DNA of 31,089 nt. It comes from Halobacteriales archaeon SW_9_67_25 (GTDB lineage: Archaea > Halobacteriota > Halobacteria > Halobacteriales > Haloarculaceae). How positions within the stretch are numbered: the first letter of the stretch is position 1; each line of letters begins with the position of its first letter. The position numbers and the translations under genes are program-made. Under the pieces are notes generated by a model that was given only the letters and a program-made list of their open reading frames with translations, searched no databases and had not been told where the DNA came from. The DNA lies in contig PXSU01000103.1 of assembly GCA_003022745.1 (NCBI GenBank), positions 1-31,089 on the forward strand, given 5' to 3'. Shown piece by piece: positions 14,235 to 31,089 of this stretch.

Positions 14235-14621
14235 GTGACCGAGGACGGATCGACGCCAGCCGACGACCGAACGCGCCGAGGGGACGGTGGGACGGAGGAC
14301 GCCCTCTCGGAGCGGACGCGCCGGTACAGGGTGTTGTTCCTGCTGGCGGTCGCCGAACTGCTCGCGATGACGCTGTGGTTCAGCGCCTCGGCCGTCGGGC
14401 CGGAACTCGCGGCGGCCTGGGGGCTCACGGCGGCCGAGACCGCGTGGCTGACCAACGCCGTCCAGCTCGGGTTCGTGTGGGGGTTCGTCATCGTCGCCGA
14501 CTCCGCGCAGTTCTCGACTGCTGTCTCCGAACTGGCCGACGACTCCTACGTCGGGACGGCCGCCATGCTCTACCTCCGTCGGCTGCCCGAATCCCGGCAG
14601 CTGGCCGGTGGCGCCGGCTGA
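14235..14621 (+). pseudogene. MFS transporter reduced to 128 residues by internal deletions
   Basis: A GTG-started ORF that stays open but strings together pieces of a roughly 400-residue major facilitator transporter. It contains the cytoplasmic N-tail and first span (YRVLFLLAVAELLAMTLWFS), the ASAVGPELAAAWGLTAAETA loop, the start of the second span (WLTNAVQLGFVWG), then directly FVIVADSAQFSTAVSELADD and SYVGTA, which lie late in this transporter family, then an ending AMLYLRRLPESRQLAGG that resembles the extreme C-terminus. At least two in-frame deletions (near 14478 and 14562) are implied, removing some eight or nine spans. It cannot transport. The substrate of the parent is unknown. The assignment of pieces is from family recall and would need alignment to an intact homologue. 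Confidence 0.7.
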
Positions 14622-14868
14622 CCGGACCGGGAGAATCGCCCGTCTTCGATGGAGGCTCTTGCCTAATCTGATGAAACAATAGTCATCTGCTAGTAATGCT
14701 ACTGCACAACCACCGCATAACATTACTTGATCGGCGGCTACCTGAATCCTGCTAGTGCAGCATCAGTATATAAACAGACAGTAAAAAAAGACGATAGAGG
14801 GGTTAATACGGCTGTGTTCAAAAGCAAAAATACGATGAAAGAAATAAAATGCTCCGGAGTCAAAATAT
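14622..14868 (+). other. AT-rich intergenic edge of the low-GC island
   Basis: GC falls sharply from about 14660. No gene is seen. It holds a direct repeat ctgctagt at 14687-14694 and 14749-14756, each followed by sequence that partly forms an inverted repeat (tgctactgcac versus gtgcagca), and a strong TATA-like box at 14767-14774. The repeats could be an operator for the downstream operon or a trace of insertion; neither is proven. Confidence 0.5.
14767..14774 (+). promoter_or_regulatory. TATA-like box for the Panacea-like/MazF-like operon
   Basis: tatataaa, the best match to an archaeal TATA box in the island, lies about 95-102 nt before ATG 14869, predicting a leader near 70 nt. The direct repeats just upstream would be placed suitably for autoregulation. 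Confidence 0.5.
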
Positions 14869-15897
14869 ATGCACATGCTCACTCTAGGGGATGAGGAACC
14901 CCTCCTCTTGGACATAAAAGAGGGAGTCCAGCATGCCCTCTATATTGGTAAGCAGGAGAGACGATTTACCCAGGACGAAATCCGGCTTGATAAGATTCGT
15001 CTCAACAAGCTTCAGTATATCGTCAATGAAGACCGTGACCTGGGACTCACCTTCGGCTGGTTCAAATACGGCCCTGCCCCTGAAGACGTTACAACAGACA
15101 CCGGAGTAGAACTGAGTCCTCAACCGGGAGACGCTATTCCGCACTTGGACGAGAGTAGACTGCCAAGCAAAGATTTCCTCTCAACCGAAGCATTTGCCTA
15201 CTACTTCCTCCGAGAGCTTGACGATGAGTTTGACAGAATCGTGACTGCAGAGAAGACGAAAGTCTACTTGGAAGAGTTCTATGATGAGTATGCGTCTAAA
15301 GATGAATATGCCGCTAGATTCACTGATTTGTACAAAGCTAGTGCCTGTCTTCAGCAGACGCTTGATAAAATCGGAGACGGAACCGATTGGCATCAGAACT
15401 CAACAGAATACTATTATGAACTGGACGGGAATTTCTTGCCAGTGAGTGAGGAAATAAAAAAGCACGAATCCTTAGAGCACACTCTGGAGCCGCTTGAAGA
15501 ATACAGAAAGCTGCTGACTAGTATCATCTCGGAAGCTGACACGGAGGAAGAACTGTCAGCTGGACAGCAGGCATTCATTACTAACGCGATTCGGAAGTTC
15601 TACAATACGGTTTGGGACTTTGTGGCCCAAGAAATCTCTCTGGAGACGATGCGGGGCGAGAATGTGGATGAACTACGTCCCGGTGTTGAGGCTACTGCGG
15701 AAAAATACCGGAAAGGCTCATGGAAAGCCGAACTAGAATCTCTAGCGGAGAGAAGAGAGTCGGTTGGGTTAGAACCCGAGATAGAAGATATGGAAGAACT
15801 TGAGTCGGGGGGAAACGAGCAAGATGATGGGCAGTCGCTGGACAAGGAAATGGTTAAACGCATCTCCCAGATGGGAGCAGAGGTGATTAGTGAGTGA
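14869..15897 (+). CDS. Panacea-like protein, candidate antitoxin partner of a MazF-like toxin
   Basis: A 342-residue, acidic, helix-rich protein in low-GC DNA. Residues 37-71 (DEIRLDKIRLNKLQYIV, then GWFKYGPAPEDV) resemble the Panacea/SocA core: a KLQKLxY-like helix followed by a KYGP turn. The rest is charged helical sequence with possible coiled coils (about 110-330) and a negatively charged tail (EDMEELESGGNEQDD). No membrane span. Its stop codon overlaps the GTG start of the MazF-like gene by GTGA (15894-15897), the usual coupling of toxin-antitoxin pairs. Panacea domains are known as antitoxin modules that pair with unrelated toxins. The present protein is longer than typical antitoxins, so it could also be a larger regulator or a phage-defence component. 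An alternative start is the ATG two codons downstream. Domain assignment is tentative; the operon structure is directly visible. Confidence 0.65.
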   Translation: MHMLTLGDEEPLLLDIKEGVQHALYIGKQERRFTQDEIRLDKIRLNKLQYIVNEDRDLGLTFGWFKYGPAPEDVTTDTGVELSPQPGDAIPHLDESRLPSKDFLSTEAFAYYFLRELDDEFDRIVTAEKTKVYLEEFYDEYASKDEYAARFTDLYKASACLQQTLDKIGDGTDWHQNSTEYYYELDGNFLPVSEEIKKHESLEHTLEPLEEYRKLLTSIISEADTEEELSAGQQAFITNAIRKFYNTVWDFVAQEISLETMRGENVDELRPGVEATAEKYRKGSWKAELESLAERRESVGLEPEIEDMEELESGGNEQDDGQSLDKEMVKRISQMGAEVISE

Positions 15898-16265
15898 GTT
15901 TCCCTGAATACGGGGATCTCATTCACGTTGATTTTACACCATCTGAAGATTCCGAACCGGGGGAATTTGAGGACCCGCATCCCGCAGTTGTAGTCCAATA
16001 CACTAGCTCCGATGATAGAGCAGTAGTCGTTGCTCCAGTTTCATCGCGTGACAAGCAAAGCCGCTCTCGTGAAGTCAGACTTCCCGGAACGATCGACGGA
16101 TTAGACAGCGACTCAGTAGCTATCCTGAATTTAATAACTACTGTATCATTTGAGGGGCGAGTGAAACCGGAGGACGATGATTCAGATTCTTGGCGTCTCG
16201 GGAAGATCCCGCCGCAGAAGATGGAAGAGATACAAGAAAAAGTTGAACGATTGTTCCGAATCTGA
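15894..16265 (+). CDS. MazF/PemK-family toxin-like endoribonuclease
   Basis: A 123-residue protein with the MazF/PemK layout: GDLIHVDFTPSEDSEPGEFE (7-26, the barrel start and first loop), PAVVVQYTSSDD (30-41), VVVAPVSSRDK (44-54), a DSVAILNLITTVSFEGRV stretch matching the family's xQxRTxD-like region, and a C-terminal helix ending LGKIPPQKMEEI. MazF enzymes cut single-stranded RNA. The family Arg that precedes Pro in the RPAxVV motif is His29 here, and the usual Thr/Ser of the second catalytic strand could be Ser50 or Ser51. The start is GTG 15894, overlapping the upstream gene by 4 nt. Low-GC composition like its partner suggests transfer as a pair. Confidence 0.85.
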   Translation: MSFPEYGDLIHVDFTPSEDSEPGEFEDPHPAVVVQYTSSDDRAVVVAPVSSRDKQSRSREVRLPGTIDGLDSDSVAILNLITTVSFEGRVKPEDDDSDSWRLGKIPPQKMEEIQEKVERLFRI

Positions 16266-16534
16266 TTATATACCTAATCGGTAGATACTCTCTCGATAAA
16301 GGGCTTCAATATCCTCATAGTGGGCGTGAAGATCGGAGTCAATCGGTTCACGCATTGACCCCTTCTCGCCCGAATTACCGCTATCTACCTCTGTGCTGAA
16401 AATGGACCTACATCTTGCACGGCCCGTCCTAACAGAAACCCCCAGAAGCCCAATAACTCTGTTTCGCTATCTTCAGTAAGAGCCAGTCGATAAAATTCAG
16501 GGTGACGCGCGCAGACTTTCGCATCTAATGATAG
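16266..16534 (-). pseudogene. C-terminal remnant of an accessory protein with a frame change
   Basis: On the minus strand two adjoining frames read like protein. From about 16534, LSLDAKVCARHPEFYRLALT then EDSETELLGFWGFLLGRAV runs to a stop after SAQR. In the shifted frame, FSTEVDSGNSGEKGSMREP then IDSDLHAHYEDIEALYRESI ends at a TAA (16266-16268). Adding one T to the TTTT run at the crossing (coding strand, near 16389) joins them into one C-terminus of about 88 residues. An in-frame TAG at 16535-16537 and the lack of a start codon mean the rest is missing. It shares the lower GC of the toxin pair. I do not recognise the family; it is convergent to the MazF-like gene and may be what is left of an earlier island gene. 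Confidence 0.5.
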
Positions 16535-16559
16535 CTACTCAAACGGAGAGCAGACTGCG

Positions 16560-17822
16560 CTACGCCAGTTCTTCGATGTTCTCGGCGACGGCGGCGGCGT
16601 ACTCGCTGGTGGCGAGTTTCTCGCCGCCCTCGATCTGGCGGTGGAGGTCGTAGGTCACCCGCTTGTCGGAGATGGTCGCCTCACAGGCGTCCCTGACCAG
16701 TTCGGCAGCGTCAGTCCAGCCCATGTACTCGAACATGATCGCCCCGGAGAGCATCATCGCGGTGGGGTTGACCTTGTCCTGGCCGGCGTACTTGGGTGCC
16801 GAGCCGTGGACGGGTTCTGCCAGGCACAACGCGTCCCCGAAGTTCGCGCCGGGCGCGATGCCCAGCCCGCCGATCTGGGCGCCACAGGCATCGGAGAGGT
16901 AATCGCCGTTGAGGTTCGGCAATGCCATGACGTCGTACTGTTCGGTCCGGGTCAGCACCTGCTGGAGCATGTTGTCGGCGATGCGGTCGTTGACCACGAC
17001 GGCGTCGTCTGGCTGTTCGCCGTCGCGTTCCTCCCAGAGGGTGTTCTCGGTGATGACCTCGTCGCCGTACTCCTCTTCGGCGACCTCGTAGCCCCATTCG
17101 CTGAAGGCTCCCTCGGTGAACTTCATGATGTTGCCCTTGTGGATCAGCGTCACGGAGTCGCGGTCGTGTTCGAGGGCGTAGTCGATTGCCTTCCGGACCA
17201 GCCGCTTGGTGGCGTGCTCGGAGATGGGTTTGACGCCGATGCCGACCGCCCCGTCGTGGATAGTCTCGTCGAAGCCCATCTCGTCTTCGACGAACTCCCG
17301 GACCTGTTCGACCTCGTCGGTACCCGCTTCCCACTCGATGCCCGCGTAGACGTCTTCGGTGTTCTCCCGGAAGCTGATCATGTCCATCTGTTCGGGATTC
17401 GAAACCGGCGAGGGAACTCCCTCCAGGTGGTAGGTGGGCCGGACGTTGGCGTAGGTGTCCAGCGTCTGCCGGAGCGCGACGTTCAGCGACCGGTAGCCGA
17501 CGCCGACGGGAGTCGTGAGCGGTCCCTTGATGGCCACGCGGTGTTCGCGGATGGCCTCGATGGTCTCGCCGGGGAGGTTCTCGTCGTACTTCTCGCGGGC
17601 ACTCTCTCCGGCGTAGATCCGCATCCAGGCGACGTCCCGGCCGGTCGCCCGTGCCGCCGCCGTCAGGATCTCCTTGGCCGCCGGTGCGACATCCTGGCCG
17701 ATGCCGTCGCCATAGAGGATGGGAATGATCGGGGTGCCCGGGACGTCGAGTTCGTCGGTTTCCTCGTCGACTACCCGGATCCGCTCGCCCTCGTCGGGTA
17801 CCTCGATCTTGTCGTAGGACAT
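16560..17822 (-). CDS. icd: isocitrate dehydrogenase, NADP-type
   Basis: TCA-cycle enzyme converting isocitrate to 2-oxoglutarate and CO2. 420 residues from ATG 17822 (MSYDKIEVPDEGERIRV), the usual length for the bacterial/archaeal dimeric enzyme. Signatures: PILYGDGIG (about 34-42), the substrate loop GPLTTPVGVGYRSLNVALRQ (about 99-118), the Tyr/Lys region ENTEDVYAGIE and HKGNIMKFTEG, the metal aspartates in NDRIADNMLQ and NLNGDYLSDACG, and the cofactor-site LAEPVHGSAPKYAGQ. The C-terminus (EYAAAVAENIEELA) is intact. It is a monocistronic-looking minus-strand gene directly bordering the low-GC island at its 3' end, so the island inserted, or remained, just downstream of icd. Confidence 0.97.
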   Translation of the reverse strand: MSYDKIEVPDEGERIRVVDEETDELDVPGTPIIPILYGDGIGQDVAPAAKEILTAAARATGRDVAWMRIYAGESAREKYDENLPGETIEAIREHRVAIKGPLTTPVGVGYRSLNVALRQTLDTYANVRPTYHLEGVPSPVSNPEQMDMISFRENTEDVYAGIEWEAGTDEVEQVREFVEDEMGFDETIHDGAVGIGVKPISEHATKRLVRKAIDYALEHDRDSVTLIHKGNIMKFTEGAFSEWGYEVAEEEYGDEVITENTLWEERDGEQPDDAVVVNDRIADNMLQQVLTRTEQYDVMALPNLNGDYLSDACGAQIGGLGIAPGANFGDALCLAEPVHGSAPKYAGQDKVNPTAMMLSGAIMFEYMGWTDAAELVRDACEATISDKRVTYDLHRQIEGGEKLATSEYAAAVAENIEELA

Positions 17823-17970
17823 ATGAAGGTGGCTTGCTCGGCCGCCTGTAAAGACATGCCGCTTTCGTCGAACGGGTGAAACTCCGCCCCGTCCGGGTCA
17901 TACTGCCGGCAGTCTCGGCCTCCAGCACGGGAGCGCCACCTCTATTTCCCGTCCGGTCGTGGGGACACCC

Positions 17971-18465
17971 ATGCACGTCCTCGCCCACGGCGGTGCCGGA
18001 AGCGCACCCGACAATCCCCGGACGCGACGCGAGAGCCTGCGGGCAGCCACGGCTGCCGGTGCCGACACGGGAACACCGAAAACTGCCGTCGTCGCGACGG
18101 TCCGTCACCTCGAATCCGACCCGCAGTTCAACGCTGGCGTCGGGATCGCCGTCCAGAGCGACGGGACAATCAGGACCGACGCGGGACTGATGACCGGCGA
18201 CGGCACTGCCGGCGCGGCCTGTGCGATGCCGGGCGTCGAGCACGCCGTCGAGGTCGAGGCAATCGCGCGGTTCGGGCTGGCCCGCCGGGCTGTCGCGGCT
18301 GTGGAGGACGGCGCCGCTCCTGCCGGTGCGGCCGGGGAAACCATCGAGCGGTTCGCCGCCGAGACCGGCGGGACTGCGGGCGTGATCGTCCTCGGCCGGT
18401 CGGGCACGACGGGGGAAGCCCACAACGCCGAGGCGATGCAGACAGCGACACACGGCGACCAGTGA
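17971..18465 (+). pseudogene. isoaspartyl peptidase/L-asparaginase remnant lacking the catalytic Thr
   Basis: The 164-residue ORF has the N-terminus of plant-type asparaginase/isoaspartyl aminopeptidase (MHVLAHGGAGSAPDNPRTR), the conserved NAGVGIAVQSDGTIRTDAG and GAACAMPGVEHAV. It then jumps at about residue 93 to the C-terminal helix (EAIARFGLARRAVAAVEDG) and the end TAGVIVLG and NAEAMQTA. Intact members are near 290-300 residues and mature by cleavage before a Thr that is both the nucleophile and the new N-terminus of the beta chain; that segment (usually G-T-V-G-A) and the GGxxxxxxGxGE region are absent. The deletion keeps frame, so a protein may be made but cannot be catalytic. The ATG at 17971 is preferred over GTG 17959, with an AT patch about 30 nt upstream. 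Confidence 0.8.
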
Positions 18466-30207: not shown

Positions 30208-30288
30208 TACGGATTGCTGTAGTTCATTACTGGATCGACCGCAATACGGCGTGCGGTCGACCTGGAAAATAGCCACAGCAATCCGTAT
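30207..30288. repeat. 82-bp TIR/hairpin element, complete copy
   Basis: Perfect 14-bp terminal inverted repeats atacggattgctgt (30207-30220) and acagcaatccgtat (30275-30288) enclose a central hairpin cgaccgcaatacggcgtgcggtcg (about 30235-30259, imperfect centre). It carries no ORF. The same left half occurs at 676-738. The architecture is that of a small non-autonomous (MITE-like) or palindromic intergenic element. No target duplication could be recognised. Confidence 0.8.
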
Positions 30289-30522
30289 GACGGCGGCTAC
30301 CTTCTCGTAGGCAGGACGTTCTCCTTTCGAGCGGTCGGCACCGAAAACGAAGTGGTCGCGATCAGCAGTGTTGAGGCCGGGGAGGACAGCGAGGCGCGAA
30401 GCGCCTCTGGCCGTGCGAACGGCAAAGCCGTGAGCAGAAGCCGACACCCCGCACCACAAATCACAAGACAGTAGCCGACCGACTCTCAAACTATTAAGTA
30501 CCGTCAAACTAACACCTGAAAT
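30289..30522 (+). other. TnpB upstream region with hairpins and a TATA-like box
   Basis: No confident gene. It contains two perfect hairpins, gaggcgc-gaa-gcgcctc at 30391-30407 and cggc-aaa-gccg just after (about 30420), and an AT-rich core actattaagt at 30490-30499, 24-33 nt before the expected tnpB start. The hairpins might be the left-end palindromes of an IS200/IS605-group element. An open frame of about 50 codons ending at about 30474 has no recognisable product. Confidence 0.4.
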
Positions 30523-31089
30523 ATAGAGGTCAGACGCACTGCGCCAGTCAAGCTCGTTGTTCCCGACGAGTATCACGATTGCCTCCATGAAACCGCCGAC
30601 CAATTTCTCTACTGCGCGAACGAGGCCAGTGACTACTGCTGGGACAACACCGACTACGAAGACTGTATCACCTCGAATGTGACAGCCAGAGACGCACTCT
30701 ACGACCGTCTCCGCGAGGAAACAGACCTTACAGCAAATCTCGTCCAAGAAGCTATCCGGCGTGCCGTCCACGCCGTCGACAGCGGCGTAGACCGCTGGAA
30801 GAAGGGCAAACGAACGAACAAGCCAGAGTTTACCTCCTGGAGTATAGTCTACGACAAGCGCAGTGCGACCTTCTACCGGAACAAAATTTCTCTTTCCACG
30901 GTGAATAGTCGCATCGAGTGCGACTTTGAACTGCCAGCAAACAGTCCAACACCATACGAAGAGTACGTCCTGTCCGAAGACCACGAGTTTCGGACGAGTA
31001 CACTCCAGTACGACCAAGCCACCGACGAGTTTTATTTCCACATCAAAACACGAAAGATCGATGAAGATGGTGAAGCTGTTGAGATCGAG
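30523..31089 (+). mobile_element. tnpB: IS200/IS605-group TnpB (RNA-guided nuclease), N-terminal 189 codons, start codon ATA
   Basis: The frame reads EVRRTAPVKLVVPDEYHD, FLYCANEASDYCWDN, ETDLTANLVQEAIRRAV, VDRWKKGKRTNKPEFTSWS, VYDKRSATFYRNKISLST and EYVLSEDHEFRTSTLQYDQ, the N-terminal wedge domain of haloarchaeal TnpB, and continues past the window edge. TnpB is an RNA-guided DNA endonuclease of transposons and the ancestor of Cas12; its RuvC residues lie beyond the edge. Where relatives start MEVRRTAPVKL, this copy has ATA (30523-30525) in place of ATG, and no other in-frame start occurs for a long stretch. It may be translated from a non-standard codon or be silent. No tnpA is seen. Confidence 0.85.

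Follow-up and report, generated by a model that had tools for sequence, protein, structure and literature searches.

Two adjacent, co-directional genes in a segment of low guanine-plus-cytosine (GC) content of Halobacteriales archaeon SW_9_67_25 form a well-supported candidate toxin-antitoxin module. The stretch analyzed here, referred to as the window, comprises positions 1 to 31,089 of contig PXSU01000103.1 (assembly GCA_003022745.1). The first gene encodes a large protein of Pfam family DUF8098 (PF26400), and the second encodes a protein that is clearly of the MazF/PemK type. We read the pair as a type II module in which DUF8098 neutralizes a putative MazF-type ribonuclease (RNase), with a probability of about 0.8 from sequence comparison. 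The antitoxin is probably a remote relative of Panacea that is used with several toxin folds.

A conserved two-gene unit

The features of the module, with positions in the window, are as follows.

14869..15897, + strand: DUF8098 protein, putative antitoxin, 342 residues (340 from the likelier start at 14875); 67 homologues with PF26400, alignment A1
15894..16265, + strand: MazF/PemK-type protein, putative toxin (endoribonuclease), 123 residues; PF02452 at 4.9e-14 and profile matches to MazF entries of the PDB
14828..14868, + strand: conserved, promoter-like upstream element (AAATACGATGAAAGA.ATAAA...); alignment of 8 upstream regions and left limit of blastn similarity
14884..15078, + strand: Panacea-like core, residues ~6-70 (DIKEG..AL, KLQYIV, LTFGWFKYGPAP); hhalign of profile A3 against Panacea alignment A6 (both described below)
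15184..15759, + strand: helical bundle domain, residues ~106-297; common across the family alignment
15844..15894, + strand: C-terminal tail, residues 326-342, with the motif ISQMGAEVI; candidate toxin-binding element, partner-linked motif
15978..15983, + strand: His29-Pro30 of the MazF-type protein at the usual catalytic Arg-Pro position; PHPA in 10 of 10 aligned module MazFs
14640..16560, no strand: low-GC block around the module; GC 0.475 versus 0.675 elsewhere in the window

A preliminary description of this DNA had claimed two overlapping open reading frames (ORFs), and both are present, at 14869-15897(+) and 15894-16265(+), sharing GTGA at 15894-15897. The unit is not a chance arrangement, since the large protein has 67 homologues, the small one matches PF02452 at 4.9e-14, and their adjacency is conserved. 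Two adjacent co-directional genes that are kept together are a feature of type II systems.

The conserved unit is a cassette of about 1.44 kb (~14828-16265). When the window was compared by blastn with eight related loci, similarity began at 14827-14834 in seven of them (at 14827-14828 in six of the eight) and at 14875 in L004. It ended at 16261-16263, the toxin stop, in four loci; three others extended to 16321-16366, and L004 only to 16149. GC content is 0.484 in the two genes, 0.475 over 14640-16560 and 0.675 in the window outside that block. The abrupt change in composition described earlier is therefore real as a drop, but its edges are not those of the unit, because the blastn limits define a cassette narrower than the low-GC block.

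An element ATGAAAGA..TAAA is common to the 8 aligned upstream regions, about 30-45 nt 5' of the start. It reads as an archaeal transcription factor B recognition element plus TATA box for a leaderless message that would start at 14875. Most of the 32 homologues aligned with the large protein begin at this second ATG (MLT...); since the promoter-like element is also placed as a leaderless start needs, 14875 is a likelier start than 14869.

DUF8098 genes are paired with several toxin folds

Every homologue found carries PF26400. A first search gave 67 proteins (33-90% identical to the large protein), with PF26400 in 67/67; this assignment rests on the homologues' precomputed domains, and some of the source names give PF26400 as DUF8098. 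Profile A1, built from the window protein and 32 homologues (33 sequences), matches in 61 of the 391 genomes that belong to the same class as the window. With a wider profile, A3 (61 members), at least 119 proteins were retrieved, with PF26400 in 119/119, when the 7997 candidates sharing the most words with it were scored; in the phylum it matches in 17 of 246 genomes, and four of these have no rank below the phylum in common with the window. All genomes searched belong to this one phylum.

After removal of duplicates (L001-L005, L007, L011, L031 and L038), a gene starting within 20 bp was found at 64 of 66 DUF8098 loci, the downstream side being the one searched. These partners comprise 44 PIN-like, 12 MazF and 4 RelE-fold proteins and 4 single ones. 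In the tree and the motif counts, "PIN-like" denotes every locus not in another list, including L057, which has no BLAST link to the PIN-like cluster. Viewed from the toxin side, MazF matches occur in 55 of the 391 genomes; the 11 with E < 1e-19 are all adjacent to DUF8098 by their coordinates (11/11 genomes), and the remainder are distant (29-37% identical). The survey upholds the earlier proposal of a two-gene module; it is patchily spread, and its adjacency is conserved. DUF8098, standing beside PIN-like, MazF and RelE-fold partners, looks like a promiscuous antitoxin family. The preliminary description overlooked this range of unrelated toxin folds, which makes the stronger case for a role like that of Panacea.

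The RelE-fold partner (4 members) was assigned by Foldseek with its fold model, which gave no match at E ≤ 0.001; the best rows, from E 0.012 to ~0.2, are nearly all RelE-superfamily toxins. A PDB profile search with the same four members returned kinase matches only, which were judged to be chance. Directly upstream of one DUF8098/RelE-fold pair, in Halorutilus, lies a DUF433/DUF5615 pair (L005:9201-9808) that is likely another toxin-antitoxin module.

Partner identity follows the family tree. On a quick tree of 64 rows, without L010 and L073, the window groups with 11 MazF-linked and 4 RelE-linked rows (SH-aLRT, the Shimodaira-Hasegawa-like approximate likelihood ratio test, 98), and of the 49 rows outside this group, 44 are labeled PIN-like. 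With a midpoint root, PIN may be the older partner of DUF8098. L010 was likewise left out of the motif count, and L010 and L018 out of the distance comparison.

Several copies are broken or incomplete. At L018 the DUF8098 gene is open and its MazF is truncated at 89 residues (2535-2801); both genes are open in the related L017. L063 and L067 have no partner, the DUF8098 frame of L067 being short, and L035 has a short DUF8098 frame beside an unidentified ORF. The second fragment at L073, followed by a transposase-like ORF, was not counted as a locus.

The MazF-type protein has His at the usual catalytic Arg position

The small protein had been described as MazF/PemK-like, and it scores 52.9 bits against PF02452 (cut-off 23.1). 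Its profile (A5) matches MazF entries of the PDB, down to 3.6e-6. Where ordinary MazFs read RPA, the aligned module MazFs read PHPA, which aligns to VRP of the MazF in PDB entry 4of1. Two distant haloarchaeal MazFs that were read keep the usual RPAVV (TRPA). At the second site, Ser replaces Thr in 9 of 10 module MazFs, and L006 has Thr. A His-based active site is possible.

The N-terminal core of DUF8098 resembles Panacea

The large protein is almost all-helical in its AlphaFold2 model (mean predicted local distance difference test score [pLDDT], 83.7), with low confidence at residues 72-80 and in the tail from 306. Searches of Pfam, NCBIfam, PADLOC and PHROGs with this protein gave nothing usable, and weak helical matches (DruH3, 0.016) were discarded. 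Its Foldseek (PDB and BFVD) and VIA matches are common helical bundles only, none of them at a Foldseek E ≤ 0.001. A sequence search of the PDB turned up no Panacea structure, so the lack of Panacea among the Foldseek and VIA matches says nothing about the fold.

Profile comparison points to a likely, if remote, homology between the N-terminal core and Panacea. Matches to Panacea (PF13274) were found in 31 of the 246 genomes of the phylum. A trimmed alignment was made from 26 of the 31 fetched loci, leaving out L095 and L103-L106, and a second one (A6) from 23 of these, additionally without L079, L082 and L101. DUF8098 against the trimmed alignment gave an hhalign score of 33.7 (E 5.4e-4, probability 30%), compared with a maximum of 20.1 in 200 shuffled-column controls. 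A3 against A6 scored 35.6 (E 4.4e-4, query columns 19-78), or 37.1 on match columns only, compared with a mean of 11.5, a standard deviation of 2.2 and a maximum of 20.6 in 150 shuffles. Reversed Panacea alignments scored 12.4 and 13.7, and four partner families used as decoys reached at most 22.0; column shuffles are a lenient control and the decoy families are few. The aligned elements are those of the Panacea core, namely the helix with DIKEG..AL, the one with KLxY and the strand that precedes GP.

Ranked searches with hidden Markov models (HMMs) are consistent with this. Among 4385 ORFs of the DUF8098 loci, ranks 1-20 for the trimmed Panacea HMM are all DUF8098 proteins, with a best E of only 0.02, so that they are individually nonsignificant; they are also mutually related. 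The HMM from A6 separates DUF8098 less cleanly, its rank 3 not being DUF8098. The Panacea-like core proposed in the preliminary description is thus backed by profile-profile comparison and ranked HMM search but not by a match to the Pfam model: the window protein has no SocA_Panacea match at E ≤ 1, and six relatives also gave none. A PF13274 search of the genomes of 58 relatives matched in 2, neither with a DUF8098 match.

DUF8098 could instead be an antitoxin family unrelated to Panacea, its KLxY...YGP resemblance being convergent. The Pfam Panacea model matches 0 of 61 DUF8098 members at E ≤ 0.1, the hhalign probability of A3 against A6 is low (34% over 55 columns), and no fold evidence speaks for a relation. 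The close family A1 alone scores 26.9 against Panacea, with a probability of 4%, although this is above its own shuffles (maximum 19.3). In the reverse search of 684 ORFs with the DUF8098 profile, two Panacea proteins come first (E 5e-4 and 1e-3), and most others are at noise level. Set against convergence are the scores far above both sets of shuffles and all four decoys, the top 20 ranks in the HMM search despite their interdependence, and the location of the alignment, which falls on the very core of Panacea. On this balance, an unrelated origin is unlikely, and the Panacea relation is preferred.

Another enlarged Panacea form was seen in other genomes of the phylum. Frames of 345-380 codons with Panacea matches (L093, L094, L096-L099 and L101) are alike in their C-terminal halves by eye.

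The C-terminal tail varies with the partner

The last residues of DUF8098 proteins differ with the partner gene. A tail motif (hydrophobic-S/T-x-x-small-small-acidic-small-I/L) occurs in 11 of 11 MazF-linked tails and in 0 of the 54 remaining tails, with no occurrence elsewhere in the 66 proteins, as counted in the sequences on which it was fitted by eye. The MazF-linked proteins of Haladaptatus and Haloarcula hispanica, near relatives of L006 and L009, have it; the family members of Archaeoglobus veneficus pleomorphic virus 1 (AvPV1) and Halobacterium salinarum do not. Among proteins of unknown partner, it is present in 52 of 67 from the first search and in 0 of 56 new ones from the second. 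AlphaFold2 predicts a tail helix at 326-341, mostly at pLDDT <50. Because the RelE-linked members adjoin the MazF-linked ones on the tree yet lack the motif, we hypothesize that it is a MazF-binding element.

Occurrence on plasmids and viruses and genomic surroundings

Copies of the module are found on the Haloarcula hispanica plasmid pHH126 and on a Haladaptatus plasmid, both with a partner annotated as PemK/MazF, and H. salinarum pHSAL2 carries a DUF8098 copy with an unannotated partner. Among 72,556 plasmid records, 2 matched the window protein and 18 matched P0068. AvPV1 encodes a family member with a neighbor that is PIN-like by eye. In an archaeal pleolipovirus record, gp21 and gp22 (L154:5902-7315), both annotated as hypothetical, form a DUF8098-like/PIN-like pair, the PIN likeness again being read by eye. 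No close relative of the large protein was confirmed in a scan of IMG/VR, and a phage collection searched with the window protein gave no match. GC content measured in ten MazF loci was 0.43-0.51 for the module and mostly 0.58-0.71 for the flanks, with one L014 flank at 0.53.

Four of six flanking window ORFs tested matched Pfam: flavin reductase, isocitrate dehydrogenase, M24 peptidase and a truncated asparaginase. The last, an Asparaginase_2 ORF of 168 residues (17959-18465) directly before the M24 peptidase, has its best stretch in the first third of the model only and looks truncated. A short ORF to the left of the low-GC block (14240-14620) has no Pfam match; by eye it has a transporter-like start and an unrelated-looking end and is perhaps a truncated gene. 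A search for repeats at the ends of the block gave only short, weak and unconvincing pairs. Over the last stretch of the window on the right (30251-31089), GC drops to 0.53-0.56.

Proposed mechanism and alternative explanations

The 123-residue MazF-fold protein would be an endoribonuclease whose cutting of RNA halts translation. DUF8098, the first gene product of the same probable operon, would silence it by direct binding. Its Panacea-like core and helical bundle would form a constant platform, whose head would probably sense an activating cue, and the exchangeable tail would contact whichever toxin is present, in this case MazF, as a C-terminal segment does in MazE-type antitoxins. The toxin would be freed when DUF8098 is lost or when it responds to a cue, be it loss of the replicon, infection or stress. 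A broader and more tentative view, to which we give somewhat less than an even chance, is that DUF8098 represents a second, archaeal hyperpromiscuous antitoxin superfamily split from Panacea. It would combine a constant sensor head and helical platform with exchangeable tails fitted to PIN originally and then to RelE-fold and MazF toxins, on plasmids, viruses and chromosomes throughout one archaeal phylum.

Besides the low Panacea probabilities and missing Pfam matches given above, several observations weigh against this scheme. Since His occupies the catalytic Arg position and Ser replaces Thr, MazF activity is not assured. Partner labels change 7 times on the tree, against a least possible 6, and follow it so closely that exchange events were few. 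The tail motif describes the same data on which it was fitted, and 15 of the 67 close homologues of unknown partner lack it. All matched plasmids are typed as non-mobilizable, and the L022 flanks (0.48-0.52) are nearly as AT-rich as the module. At L073 a transposase-like ORF splits the DUF8098 gene while the PIN-like ORF stays open, contrary to the proposed polarity.

Other explanations can be given. The MazF-like protein might no longer be a toxin, being inactive or a regulator in a module that is retained for binding DNA or RNA. According to the accessible part of PMC7354611, Bacillus MazF has Arg25 and Thr48 as catalytic residues and mutation at these positions cripples known MazFs, which gives weight to the His (10/10) and Ser (9/10) replacements. 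The same source describes Mycobacterium tuberculosis MazF4 and MazF7 with Lys for Arg and Ser for Thr, residues that matter for activity; the module MazF is conserved rather than decayed, and its ORF is intact in 10 of 11 genomes, leaving a lost toxin improbable. A reversal of roles, with a harmful DUF8098 restrained by its small partner, would suit L073, but the partners have three known toxin folds and L018 combines a truncated MazF with an open DUF8098. Broken copies as a whole point both ways on polarity, and we consider the reversal very improbable. An antiviral abortive-infection role, with DUF8098 detecting a product of infection and then setting the RNase free, would be a use of the same mechanism and not a different one. 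It is suggested by the link of Panacea-containing modules to phage defense, with Panacea proposed as a sensor (accessible part of PMC10440598), by a type I restriction HsdR-domain gene near the Haladaptatus copy and by the pair in the pleolipovirus record. The four Pfam-matched flanking ORFs of the window, however, are all metabolic or housekeeping families, other copies have unrelated neighbors and PADLOC gave no usable match, so that this role is possible though rather unlikely. We therefore retain the toxin-antitoxin module as the preferred reading.

Comparison with known systems

DUF8098 is a family without a described function, for which an antitoxin role and a relation to Panacea are proposed here. 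A literature search found no paper on it, most subscription papers being outside its reach, and the accessible text of PMC10440598 does not mention it. The pairing had been presented as undescribed. This applies to the large DUF8098 form but not to Panacea beside MazF/PemK-type toxins, since PMC8832971, in its accessible part, reports PemK-like and predicted MazF-like toxins next to Panacea, as well as two Panacea proteins on haloarchaeal plasmids. If correct, our reading would supply a function for a Pfam family present in 61 of 391 genomes of the class to which the window belongs, and it would broaden the idea of promiscuous antitoxins to include a large archaeal form. One platform with three toxin folds and differing tails offers a natural series to probe how one antitoxin family handles unrelated toxins, and cultivated species, Haloarcula hispanica and H. 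salinarum among them, carry copies.

Like MazEF/PemIK, the module has a PF02452 toxin, the antitoxin gene first and overlapping genes. MazE is a short antitoxin; the antitoxin here is helical and has 340 residues, and the toxin differs in having His for the catalytic Arg. Panacea (SocA_Panacea, PF13274, DUF4065, PanA) has three elements in common with DUF8098 by profile alignment: a helix, a second one with KLxY and a strand ahead of GP. Both place one antitoxin family beside several unrelated toxin folds, including the PemK/MazF type (PMC8832971, accessible part). A further parallel is that additional domains can perform the neutralization in some PanAs, with Panacea suggested as the sensor (PMC10440598, accessible part). 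Unlike Panacea, DUF8098 has ~340 residues, with a large helical domain and a tail, and the Pfam model does not match it. Panacea gene order varies (PMC10440598, accessible part), whereas the DUF8098 partner lies downstream in 64 of 66 loci on the side searched.
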